From Sphingomonadaceae bacterium (GTDB taxonomy: Bacteria; Pseudomonadota; Alphaproteobacteria; Sphingomonadales; Sphingomonadaceae), in contig JAJUHA010000002.1 of NCBI GenBank assembly GCA_029268145.1, positions 124,001 through 188,000 on the forward strand: 64,000 nucleotides of DNA, given 5' to 3'. The notes beneath the pieces are model-generated. The model was not told where the DNA came from. It did no database searches and saw only the letters and a list, made by a program, of their open reading frames with translations. Positions within the stretch are counted from its first letter, which is position 1, and every line of letters starts with the position of its first letter. Positions 1 to 2,752 of this stretch are shown here, piece by piece. The translations under genes and the position numbers were made by a program.

Positions 1-71
1 GCGCTCGCCCGTTCAACGGCATCGAGGAAGGCCGAGGCCTGGCCGACGAGCTGGGTCGGTTTCGCGGGCAC
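1..71 (-). CDS. pspF: PspF, sigma-54 enhancer-binding activator (5' end only)
   Basis: Only the first 23 codons are in the window; the gene runs off the left edge. Reading from a GTG at 71, the protein begins VPAKPTQLVGQASAFLDAVE, which lines up with the E. coli PspF N-terminus (a 'LLGEANSFLEVLEQVS'-type stretch ahead of the AAA+ domain). PspF is the dedicated activator of psp promoters; it lacks a receiver domain and is held inactive by PspA. Its divergent placement opposite a sigma-54 promoter and pspA is the canonical arrangement. The identification rests on a short match plus very strong context. Confidence 0.75.
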   Translation of the reverse strand, partial: MPAKPTQLVGQASAFLDAVERAS

Positions 72-101
72 CGGCCTCTGCTAGCAGGGGTGGGAAGTTT
101 C

Positions 102-114
102 GCCAAGTCTTGGC
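102..114. promoter_or_regulatory. Candidate PspF enhancer (UAS) palindrome
   Basis: GCCAAG-T-CTTGGC is a perfect 6+1+6 palindrome in the pspF-pspA intergenic region. Its centre is about 98 bp upstream of the transcription start expected from the sigma-54 promoter, which is the normal distance for an enhancer-binding protein. The sequence shows the palindrome directly; its assignment to PspF is an inference from position. Confidence 0.5.
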
Positions 115-148
115 AAAATCTTCGGCCCTTTCGACCTTCGCTTCATCC

Positions 149-161
149 TAACCCGTTGAAT
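149..161 (-). promoter_or_regulatory. Possible IHF site between enhancer and promoter
   Basis: Read on the minus strand the site is ATTCAA-CGGG-TTA, one mismatch from the IHF consensus WATCAA-N4-TTR. It lies between the enhancer palindrome and the -24 element, where DNA bending would help activator-polymerase contact. The motif is degenerate, so this is only a candidate. Confidence 0.3.
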
Positions 162-179
162 TTTCGCGTGCGTCCCGGT

Positions 180-195
180 TGGCACGGCGCTTGCA
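180..195 (+). promoter_or_regulatory. Sigma-54 (-24/-12) promoter of the psp operon
   Basis: TGGCACG-GCGC-TTGCA is a perfect match to the sigma-54 consensus TGGCACG-N4-TTGCW, with the invariant GG and GC at the required spacing. Transcription should start near position 206 and read into pspA. Together with pspF upstream this defines a PspF/RpoN-dependent operon. Confidence 0.9.
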
Positions 196-225
196 AGGTG
201 CCTGTCGCCACAGGACAGGACGACA

Positions 226-471
226 ATGACCAACCCCCACGACGACCCCTTCGCGATCGACCTTCCGGCCGACGCCTGGGGCAGTTCCGTTGAACCCGCC
301 GGCTCCGCCCGCCGCCAGTCCCCGGAGCATGCTCCGATGCGGGCGGCGCCTCGGGCCCGGGCAGACTTTCAGCCCCTCTCGACGCGGATCACCCCCGCGG
401 CTGCCCGGGCCCCCTTTTCTTCCGCCAGCGAAGGGCGCACCTTCGCTGCCAGCATCCAGGAGGTCATCCCC
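226..471 (+). other. Leader open frame fused in frame to pspA
   Basis: An ATG at 226 follows an AGGA ribosome site by five bases and lies about 20 nt after the predicted transcription start. The frame runs without a stop into PspA, which would give an 82-residue N-terminal extension beginning MTNPHDDPFAIDLPADAW. No domain is recognised, and ordinary PspA proteins lack it. The leader also holds a perfect palindrome at 323-336 and a long inverted repeat at 353-412. It may be a real alternative PspA N-terminus, a translated leader controlling pspA, or fortuitous. Confidence 0.4.
353..412 (+). terminator. Hairpin in the pspA leader, attenuator-like
   Basis: GGGCCCGGGCAG (353-364) pairs perfectly with CTGCCCGGGCCC (401-412) across a 36-nt loop, and is followed by a pyrimidine run containing TTTT. 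The structure lies between the leader start and the pspA ribosome site. It could act as an attenuator or as an mRNA-stability element. The long loop makes a classical terminator uncertain. Confidence 0.25.
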
Positions 472-1146
472 ATGGGAATCTTCTCCCGCGCCCGCGACAT
501 CATCCAGGCCAATGTGTCCGATCTGCTCGAACGCGCCGAGGATCCGGCCAAGACCATCCGTCTCGTCATCATGGAGATGGAGGAGACGCTGGTCGAGGTC
601 CGCGCCTCGGCGGCGCGGACCATCGCCGACCAGAAGGAGATGCGCCGTACCATCATCCGGCTCGAGCAGGCCCAGGAAGGCTGGGCCGAGAAGGCCGAGC
701 TTGCGCTTTCAAAGGGCCGCGAGGATCTTGCCGCTGCCGCGCTCACCGAGAAGCAGAAGGTGAAGGCCATGGCCGACCAGATGAAGGCCGAGCTCGACCT
801 TCTCGCCGAGCAGCTGAGCGGCCACGAGGACGACATCCTGAAGCTCGAGGCCAAGCTGCGCGAGGCCCGCGCCCGCCAGACTGCGCTCATGGCCCGGCTC
901 GAAACGGCGCAGAACCGCGCCCGCGTGCGGGCCATGACCCGCGGCCAGCGGGTCGAGGAGGCCTTCTCGCGCTTCGAGATCCTCGAGCGCCGGGTCGATC
1001 TCGCCGAGGGCCGCGCCGAGAGCTACGATCTCGGCGCGCCGCGCAAGTCGCTCGACGAGGAGATCGCCGAGCTCCGGACCTCGGATGCCGTCCGGGCCGA
1101 GCTCGAGGCGATGAAGCGGCGCATCGCCGCAGCGAAGGAGGGCTGA
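472..1146 (+). CDS. pspA: Phage shock protein A (PspA/IM30 family)
   Basis: This 224-residue, almost wholly alpha-helical coiled-coil protein starts MGIFSRARDIIQANVSDLLE, the hallmark PspA/Vipp1 opening with an amphipathic helix. It then continues with 'DPAKTIRLVIMEMEETL' and long Glu/Arg/Ala-rich helices. PspA binds stressed inner membrane and restrains PspF. The start at 472 has a strong AGGAGG eight bases upstream and gives the usual family length; an in-frame upstream ATG at 226 would add 82 residues. It is first in an operon with pspB, four bases after its stop, and pspC. Confidence 0.93.
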   Translation: MGIFSRARDIIQANVSDLLERAEDPAKTIRLVIMEMEETLVEVRASAARTIADQKEMRRTIIRLEQAQEGWAEKAELALSKGREDLAAAALTEKQKVKAMADQMKAELDLLAEQLSGHEDDILKLEAKLREARARQTALMARLETAQNRARVRAMTRGQRVEEAFSRFEILERRVDLAEGRAESYDLGAPRKSLDEEIAELRTSDAVRAELEAMKRRIAAAKEG

Positions 1147-1150
1147 GGCC

Positions 1151-1432
1151 ATGGACGGGCTCGAGATGCTCATCCCGCTGACGGCGATCCTTGCGATCTT
1201 CGTCGGCCTCCCCTGGCTCGTCTTCCACTACATCACCAAGTGGAAGCAGGCGAAGTCGCTCACGCTGGAGGACGAGAATCTGCTCGACGAGCTGCACGAT
1301 CTCGCCCGCAAGCTCGACGAGCGCATGACCTCGATCGAGCGGATCCACGCCGCCGACCGCGCGCTCAGCGCGCCGGCCGAGCCCACCAGCGTCGCTGCCA
1401 TCCGGCCGCGCGCCCTTGGAAAGGATGTCTGA
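1151..1432 (+). CDS. pspB: Phage shock protein B
   Basis: A 93-residue inner-membrane protein with one N-terminal membrane helix (about residues 5-25, ending WLVFHYITKWK) and a soluble coiled coil with 'LDERMTSIERI'. This matches PspB, which works with PspC to sense envelope stress and release PspF from PspA. It starts five bases after the pspA stop. It is somewhat longer than E. coli PspB because of a short Ala/Pro-rich C-terminal tail. Confidence 0.88.
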   Translation: MDGLEMLIPLTAILAIFVGLPWLVFHYITKWKQAKSLTLEDENLLDELHDLARKLDERMTSIERIHAADRALSAPAEPTSVAAIRPRALGKDV

Positions 1433-1823
1433 CATGGCCCGCCGCACCGGCTTCTACCTCGACAAGCGCAACGGGAAGTTCATGGGCGTCTGTGCCGGCA
1501 TCGCCGACTATACCGGCTTCGACGTGCTCTGGGTCCGGATCTTCATGGTTGCCGGCACGCTGCTCGGCGCCGGCTTCCTCATCCTCCTCTACCTCGTGAT
1601 CGGCTTCATGGCCGAGCCCAAGCCGGCCGAGCTCTACGCCGGCGAGGTGAACCCGGAGGATCGCGCCTTCTGGCAGAAGACCCGCGCCGCCCCCGGCCGG
1701 AGCATCCGCGAGGTCCGCTCCTCCTTCCGGGACATCGACCGCCGGCTGCGCGACATCGAGGCGAGCGTCACCTCGCAGAACAGCCGCCTGGCGCGCGAGA
1801 TCGACGATCTTCGCCACAGCTGA
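1425..1823 (+). CDS. pspC: Phage shock protein C (PspC domain)
   Basis: About 132 residues. The PspC domain appears as 'LDKRNGKFMGVCAGIADYTG' followed by a long hydrophobic helix (VRIFMVAGTLLGAGFLILLYLVIG). PspC is the envelope-stress sensor partner of PspB. The start at 1425 overlaps the pspB stop and has GGAAAGG just upstream; an ATG at 1434 is possible. Unlike E. coli PspC, the C-terminus carries 'RRLRDIEASVTSQNSRLAREI', which aligns residue for residue with the tails of the next three small proteins. Confidence 0.9.
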   Translation: MSDMARRTGFYLDKRNGKFMGVCAGIADYTGFDVLWVRIFMVAGTLLGAGFLILLYLVIGFMAEPKPAELYAGEVNPEDRAFWQKTRAAPGRSIREVRSSFRDIDRRLRDIEASVTSQNSRLAREIDDLRHS

Positions 1824-1862
1824 CCGGCTCGGACACAATCACCAGAAGGAGGGACTGGCACC

Positions 1863-2114
1863 ATGGTCCGCGAACTCGGGGTCCTCATCCCCATCATCGC
1901 GCTCCTCATTCCCATCGTTGCCATCACCATGCGTCACTGGAAGAGCGTGAAGATGCGCGAGCTCGACCTGCTCGAGCAGTCCCGCAACAGCCTCGACGGC
2001 GAGGCCCGCCAGCGGCTCGAGCGGCTCGAGGAACGGGTCCGCGTGCTCGAGCGCATCGCCACCGACCGGCGGCTCGATCTCGCCGACGAAATCAAGCGTC
2101 TCGACGAAAGGTAA
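1863..2114 (+). CDS. Small membrane protein with PspB-like coiled-coil tail (psp operon)
   Basis: An 83-residue protein with one N-terminal membrane helix (residues 3-23, Ile/Leu/Ala) and a charged helical tail containing 'RLEERVRVLERIATD' and 'LADEIKRLDER'. The start has AGGAGG nine bases upstream. The topology (single helix then cytoplasmic coiled coil) and the 'RV..LERI' segment resemble PspB. No exact family is recognised. Its place after pspC argues for a role in the same membrane stress complex, which is an inference. Confidence 0.8.
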   Translation: MVRELGVLIPIIALLIPIVAITMRHWKSVKMRELDLLEQSRNSLDGEARQRLERLEERVRVLERIATDRRLDLADEIKRLDER

Positions 2115-2119
2115 GCCAG

Positions 2120-2425
2120 ATGGAGCTGCTGCACATCATCGGAGGCCCCGGGATCGTCGGGATCGTCGTCGCCGCCAGCGCCGCCTGGGTCTTCACGACC
2201 TGGCTCAAGGTCCGCCACGGCTACCCGCTCGAAGGCAGCTGGGGGCAGGCCCTGAAGCCCGTCGTCAACAGCGAGCATGTCGAACGGATCCGCCTGCTCA
2301 CCGCCGAGAATGCGCAGATGGCCGCCGAGCTTGCCGCCATCAAGGAGCGGCTCGTCACCCTCGAGCGAATCGCGACCGACTCCGGCTCGCGGCTTGCCCA
2401 CGAGATCGACAAGCTGAAGCACTGA
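2120..2425 (+). CDS. Small membrane protein with PspB-like coiled-coil tail (psp operon)
   Basis: A 101-residue protein with an N-terminal membrane helix (GIVGIVVAASAAWVFTTWL), then a helical region 'HVERIRLLTAENAQMAAELAAI' and the shared tail 'RLVTLERIATDSGSRLAHEI'. Its ribosome site AAAGGTAAG overlaps the stop of the preceding gene, so the two are translationally linked. It is a paralogue of the genes on both sides. No named family is recognised. Confidence 0.8.
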   Translation: MELLHIIGGPGIVGIVVAASAAWVFTTWLKVRHGYPLEGSWGQALKPVVNSEHVERIRLLTAENAQMAAELAAIKERLVTLERIATDSGSRLAHEIDKLKH

Positions 2426-2452
2426 CGCCCGCCACGGGGGAGGAGACGGAAG

Positions 2453-2752
2453 GTGGACATCAACATCTTCGAAGCCGCAGTCATCATCACCATCGCCTGG
2501 ATGGTCTGGAACGTGATGAAGGGCGGCCGCTGGAACCGCGAGACGCGGCGCTGGGAGCGCCACTCCCCCGACAACCCCTATGTGAAGGCCGGGACTGCGC
2601 TTGGCGAAGATCTGCGCGCGCGCAAGGAGATCGAGGATCTCCGCCAGCGGGTCGCCACGCTCGAACGGCTCGTCACCGATCCTGCCGTCCGCCTCGAAGC
2701 CGAGATCGCGAAGCTTCGCGACACGCCCGGGGACCCGCCCGCGCGACCCTGA
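2453..2752 (+). CDS. Small membrane protein with PspB-like coiled-coil tail (psp operon)
   Basis: A 99-residue protein starting at GTG with GGAGGAG upstream. It has a single membrane helix (about residues 5-22, AAVIITIAWMVWNVM), then 'GRWNRETRRWERH' and the shared tail 'LRQRVATLERLVTD..VRLEAEIAKL'. It is the last of three consecutive paralogues and probably the end of the psp operon. It ends in a short Pro-rich stretch. The function is unknown; a link to Psp signalling follows from position and the shared tail. Confidence 0.78.
   Translation: MDINIFEAAVIITIAWMVWNVMKGGRWNRETRRWERHSPDNPYVKAGTALGEDLRARKEIEDLRQRVATLERLVTDPAVRLEAEIAKLRDTPGDPPARP

Follow-up and report, generated by a model that had tools for sequence, protein, structure and literature searches.

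In the window, a stretch of 64,000 nucleotides from a Sphingomonadaceae bacterium (GenBank assembly GCA_029268145.1, contig JAJUHA010000002.1, positions 124,001 to 188,000 of the forward strand), the pspABC genes are followed by three genes for small membrane proteins, here called X1, X2, and X3, that end in the same tail as PspC. Judging from sequence, we think it somewhat probable (roughly 55%) that these proteins belong to the Psp complex as further membrane subunits, PspB-like and bearing the PspC-type, PspA-binding tail on different anchors. The first-pass annotation of this DNA had described an expansion of Psp membrane proteins with a PspB-like architecture (membrane helix plus cytoplasmic helix) downstream of pspABC, and this expansion is real. 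It is a lineage-wide enlargement of the Psp membrane module that family databases do not recognise.

The locus has the layout of a pspFABC system, with a divergent pspF and a sigma54 site followed by pspA, pspB, and pspC in that order (Table 1). The pspF gene, named by its position and its own sequence, is a 337-residue AAA+ reading frame on the minus strand. In Sphingomonas parapaucimobilis, pspF is annotated at the equivalent position, the pspFABC layout matches that of the window, and the same genes lie between pspC and the SufE gene, where RefSeq gives them as hypothetical proteins. Rechecking the reading frames and residues in the window showed that the genes, coordinates, and residues first reported for this locus were correct. 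The GC contents of X1–X3 at the three codon positions (0.68–0.73, 0.35–0.48, and 0.85–0.91) are like those of pspA and sufE. Because of this match with neighbouring genes, X1–X3 are very probably real genes.

Table 1. Features of the psp locus, with positions counted from the first base of the window.
Feature	Position	Strand	Description
pspF 5' end	1..71	-	sigma54 enhancer-binding protein, divergent; remainder upstream of window (L032:4058-5071)
sigma54 (-24/-12) promoter-like site	180..195	+	TGGCACGGCGCTTGCA; full consensus match
pspA	472..1146	+	ATG preceded by AGGAGG; TIGR02977 259.6 bits vs cut-off 242.95
pspB	1151..1432	+	TIGR02976 71.7 bits vs cut-off 51.7; first half of block only, ERMTSIERI, 1319-1345
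pspC	1434..1823	+	TIGR02978 123.1 bits vs cut-off 104; tail block RRLRDIEASVTSQNSRLAREIDDL, 1740-1811
X1	1863..2114	+	83 aa, type A: single membrane helix + tail; block 2031-2102
X2	2120..2425	+	101 aa, type B: membrane helix, GYP..WG segment, long tail-bearing helix; block 2345-2416
X3	2453..2752	+	99 aa, GTG start, type C: membrane helix + tail; block 2645-2716
sufE	from 2797		directly after X3 in locus order
Whole psp locus	1..2752	.	pspF divergent, sigma54 site, pspA, pspB, pspC, X1, X2, X3

In 67 of the 73 loci of the order, pspA is preceded by a strong sigma54 site (score of at least 15.4 of 17.3); as a background, the 99th percentile of shuffled 450-base stretches is 15.0. The psp locus is presumably read as a single transcript, and X1–X3 are probably co-induced with pspABC from a single sigma54/PspF promoter. 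Reading frames also occur in the gap between the sigma54 site and pspA. In the window, a frame starting at an ATG at 226 runs in frame into pspA (226–471) and could add 82 residues to the N-terminus of PspA, but the start at 472 is canonical and has its own AGGAGG. Most loci of the family have a conserved small frame of about 50 residues in this gap (MYDRRFFQTKLGQAAIASIAAM..FVALSSQ...; L244:2412-2558), which RefSeq gives as a hypothetical protein and which was not seen in the stretch before pspA in the window. In some other families of the order, the gap holds an unlike frame of about 55 residues.

To define the shared tail, we sought the best gapless block of 24 columns at all offsets over PspC, X1, X2, and X3, using sum-of-pairs BLOSUM62 scores. 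The best block was the C-terminal one noted earlier (RRLRDIEASVTSQNSRLAREIDDL, ERVRVLERIATDRRLDLADEIKRL, ERLVTLERIATDSGSRLAHEIDKL, and QRVATLERLVTDPAVRLEAEIAKL), with a score of 271. By comparison, full shuffles scored 47 ± 13, shuffles that preserved heptad positions (n = 150) scored 73 ± 16 with a maximum of 120, and non-overlapping coiled-coil segments of PspA reached at most 93. The alignment is thus better than that of random coiled coils, a comparison that had been set beforehand.

Profile–profile comparison aligned the extra proteins with PspC over 40 gapless columns (E 7.8e-8) and, using hhalign, with PspB over 62 columns that span the membrane helix and the block's first half (E 8.3e-8). 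PspC and PspB aligned with each other at E 2.4e-5. Thus X1–X3 carry the C-terminal tail block of PspC and are homologous to PspB: their front part resembles PspB and their end resembles PspC. The first-pass annotation had five proteins sharing one tail. This holds for PspC, X1, X2, and X3, which have the full tail, but PspB has the ERM..IERI half without the second half (TD....L..EI..L). The further idea that the locus had placed this tail on PspC has to be turned around. The tail is part of standard PspC, reaching the last position (121) of TIGR02978, and Ravi et al. (2024; PMC11237479) had already identified the end of PspC as a divergent PspB domain.

No Pfam or NCBIfam model matched X1–X3 above any cut-off. 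X1 missed the PspB cut-offs (15.7 versus 25.6 bits for PF06667 in Pfam and 17.7 versus 51.7 bits for TIGR02976 in NCBIfam), X2 and X3 had no match to either PspB model, and X3 matched TIGR02978 at 14.7 bits over PspC positions 41–121, which is far below the cut-off. The weak direct matches of the extras to TIGR02978 end at position 121. The PspC membrane domain PF04024 has no match in X1–X3, and pspC is its sole match in the genome of the window. PspD and PspG models were absent from the Pfam and NCBIfam matches, and searching PDB sequences with the extras and with PspC gave chance coiled-coil matches only.

Hydropathy and, for X2, a structure model show a PspB-like layout of one N-terminal membrane helix followed by a second helix, which is placed in the cytoplasm solely by the positive-inside rule. 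The model of X2 has helices at residues 10–33 (membrane) and 51–100 (mean pLDDT 79.7), and that of PspC has a continuous helix at 91–128 (mean pLDDT 75.7). A helix–break–helix form of the tail, with TD as a helix cap, was rejected because the tail is a single long helix in both models, which are of moderate confidence. The basic residues after the membrane helix suggest that the tail lies inside the cell. Against this stands work in E. coli that predicted a periplasmic PspC C-terminus and two possible topologies (PMC3068692).

We ran a tail profile seeded from the window over 74 psp loci of the order, 54 from the same family and 20 from other families. All 54 loci of the family have one to eight extras directly after pspC, with a mean of 4.3; among the 20 loci of other families, 17 have none and three have one. 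Tail matches at the 74 loci were on the operon strand only, with none on the opposite strand. By similarity, the extras fall into four types, A (71 proteins), B (64), C (52), and D (46), usually in the gene order A-B-(B)-(A)-C-D, and their stop and start codons often overlap by 1–4 bases. Between types, the N-terminal parts are more diverged than the tails (27% versus 50% identity), which fits a divergent input with a common output; the N-terminal parts may sense separately. The window has types A, B, and C and no type D, and its genus is poor in extras, with one each in G001 and G004. Orthologues of X1 are present within the same genus and family, X2 is 44–55% identical to type B proteins of other genera with GYP and WG invariant after the membrane helix, and X3 was assigned to type C by all-against-all comparison.

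A scan of a named genome collection with type B gave 534 relatives, 80 of which were kept. Every one of these 80 loci has pspA, pspB, and pspC together with three to six extras in the same stretch. Wherever their names include a genus or order, it falls within Sphingomonadales (Sphingomonas, Novosphingobium, Sphingobium, Erythrobacter, Sphingopyxis, Sandaracinobacteroides, and others), and a few MAGs are named only as Alphaproteobacteria or Proteobacteria. Sphingobium sp. SYK-6 (L172) has five extras. After pspC, about 724 bases past the start of the pspC reading frame, one locus (L085) encodes a second PspB-like protein ending in MERILDAEVPGWRERLD, which is an ordinary duplicate of PspB and not one of the tail proteins. 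In the family, many genomes contain at least two PspC-domain matches.

The extras are retained in genomes that have lost PspB. In three genomes of one genus (G147, G184, and G295; L248, L249, and L250), pspB is missing, pspC comes straight after pspA, and three to six tail-bearing frames follow pspC. In G068 (L212:2622-3407), the order is pspA, a PspC of 88 residues, a type A extra, and a type C extra. This PspC stops right after its membrane part and has no tail. PspB was not found in the G068 genome, where the best match to TIGR02976 is the type C extra at 23.7 bits. Since the extras are kept where PspB is lost, they seem able to serve there, and their retention in G068 with a tail-less PspC suggests that they seem able, in this one case, to serve for the PspC tail.

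Relatives of the extras also occur unlinked to psp. These are single-helix tail proteins of 70–107 residues whose genes lie far from psp, and a genome has between one and three of them. They occur in families of the order other than that of the window, in a further alphaproteobacterial family, and in several families that belong to other classes. Matches on chromids of Pseudoalteromonas, Vibrio, and Photobacterium suggest that the families of other classes are Gammaproteobacteria. In one genome of another class (G816), two unlinked tail genes are adjacent, far from psp (L224:2966-3530, minus strand). The genome of the window has a 122-residue frame (L201:1674-2042, minus strand; G000:C12, 19323) with a tail-like block, LRERMDTLERILASHGID (profile E 1.5e-4), which adjoins a methyltransferase-like gene and is also found in a genome of the same genus (L211). 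It has no obvious membrane helix and was not counted as an extra. A phage search with one unlinked relative gave no match.

We examined co-occurrence with PspC in 348 genomes of the phylum, of which 47 are carriers after removal of three matches (G534, G898, and G901) that have the PspB-like part only. The match in G534 adjoins pspA and was read as PspB; those in G898 and G901 (same family) were removed by analogy. Full-length PspC above the cut-off is present in 46 of the 47 carriers, and the remaining one is G068 with its truncated PspC. Apart from G068, none of the 275 genomes without PspC above the cut-off carries a tail protein. With the window's own family left out, PspC is present in 28 of 28 carriers (Fisher p 6e-26, without correction for shared ancestry). 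Occurrence without pspABC in relatives, which the first-pass annotation had named as evidence against a joint function, was not seen; unlinked relatives were found only in genomes that also encode a PspC. The sample also includes 26 genomes with full-length PspC and no tail protein, so the tail protein is not needed by Psp in general. Absence from eight PspC-bearing genomes was confirmed by a recheck that scored every candidate. No tail protein is present in the eight genomes of the order that lack pspA, and members of the window's family without pspA and tails may have lost the whole operon. Only 1 of 30 unlinked tail genes has a sigma54 site. Sigma54 control of these genes was thus not seen, and the unlinked relatives may not be induced along with psp.

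In Yersinia, PspB and PspC form a complex in the inner membrane. The cytoplasmic C-terminal domain of Yersinia PspC binds PspA in the on state (PMC5596341), and in E. coli the C-terminal part of PspC, whose topology was debated, is required for interaction with PspA and for induction (PMC3068692). The shared block falls within this domain. The simplest model is that X1–X3 are further PspB-like subunits. Sitting in the membrane with PspB and PspC, they would offer more copies of the tail that contacts PspA or PspB, on different anchors; the tail may bind PspA, PspB, or PspC. A wider range of membrane disturbances, or a larger number of binding sites, could then feed one PspA–PspF switch, and the extras can apparently stand in for PspB. 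The row of small membrane proteins suggests a stress-sensing complex with several interchangeable parts. In support of this model are a tail block above chance that is homologous to the PspC and PspB profiles, the sigma54 site before pspA, the conserved order of the extras, the restriction of unlinked relatives to genomes with PspC, the greater divergence of the N-terminal parts, and the losses of PspB. It is weakened by the few extras in the window's genus, the PspC genomes without a tail protein, and the unlinked relatives without sigma54 sites.

The structure models of X2 and PspC cannot discriminate between this model and readings in which the extras compete or act as effectors. The extra tails could buffer or switch off the response, competing with PspC for PspA or PspB so as to set a threshold or end the response without any sensing. 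Their tail is the same as that of PspC and is made from the pspABC locus, as feedback would have it, and the Yersinia PspC tail meets different partners, to go by the title of Flores-Kim and Darwin (2015), cited in PMC5596341. However, competition needs one extra and not up to eight, of conserved types with differing N-terminal parts in a fixed order, and retention where PspB is lost argues for a positive role. We therefore consider buffering unlikely. It is also improbable that the extras are effectors with no part in signalling, which would make the membrane more stable or keep PspA where damage occurs, in the way that PspBC act against secretins. Secretin toxicity is countered by PspBC on their own (PMC5596341), the small effector PspG makes contact with PspC (PMC3068692), and the unlinked relatives, apparently free of sigma54 control, could be standing parts. 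However, such a role alone explains neither why the regulatory tail of PspC is the most alike part of all types nor why the extras are kept where PspB is lost. Finally, although their Pfam and NCBIfam matches are below the cut-offs and include many weak ones to unrelated coiled coils, it is hardly credible that these are unrelated coiled coils alike by composition, and this is refuted at the sequence level because the heptad-preserving shuffles never came near the observed score, conservation of the types extends over many genera, their occurrence in the phylum follows that of PspC, and the codon-position GC is that of real genes.

Beyond the reading of X1–X3 as additional Psp subunits, we offer a more speculative proposal that could well be wrong. 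The unnamed, widespread single-helix family might consist of modular, interchangeable receptors of the Psp switch, with different anchors and a common effector tail, that work unlinked, one to three at a time, in many PspC genomes of the phylum. In Sphingomonadaceae they might have been gathered into the psp operon and multiplied, able to replace PspB and even the PspC tail. Despite long study in two enteric species, the route from membrane damage via PspB and PspC to PspF release has yet to be settled. A family with up to eight PspB-like subunits, relatives without PspB, and the one without a PspC tail are natural variants for dissecting Psp, with which sensing and PspA binding could be assigned to particular pieces and the tail tested for sufficiency by itself. 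Many proteins now called hypothetical would gain a name and a likely pathway.

The extras resemble PspB in having an N-terminal membrane helix, basic residues next to it, a cytoplasmic helix, the first half of the block (L..R...LERI), and a place in the same operon. They differ in that every extra scores below the PspB cut-offs and in carrying the second half of the block, which PspB is without, and types B and C have other juxtamembrane segments. With the C-terminal domain of PspC (TIGR02978, about 81–121) they share the 40 gapless columns, but they are without the PF04024 membrane domain and have the tail on a single, unrelated membrane helix. In their text, Ravi et al. (2024; PMC11237479) report PspB duplicates in some operons and a PspB-like PspC end, with one line and one accession for each. 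This anticipates the core of the idea in the first-pass annotation and corrects its direction, the tail being already that of PspC. The text does not cover arrays of three to eight, types A–D, relatives outside the operon, the strict link to the presence of PspC, or the replacement of PspB, and we found no report of any of these in openly licensed full texts. Like the enteric PspG and PspD, the extras are small additional Psp proteins, and PspG is likewise unlinked and contacts PspC (PMC3068692). PspG is controlled by sigma54, whereas the unlinked tail genes are without such sites.
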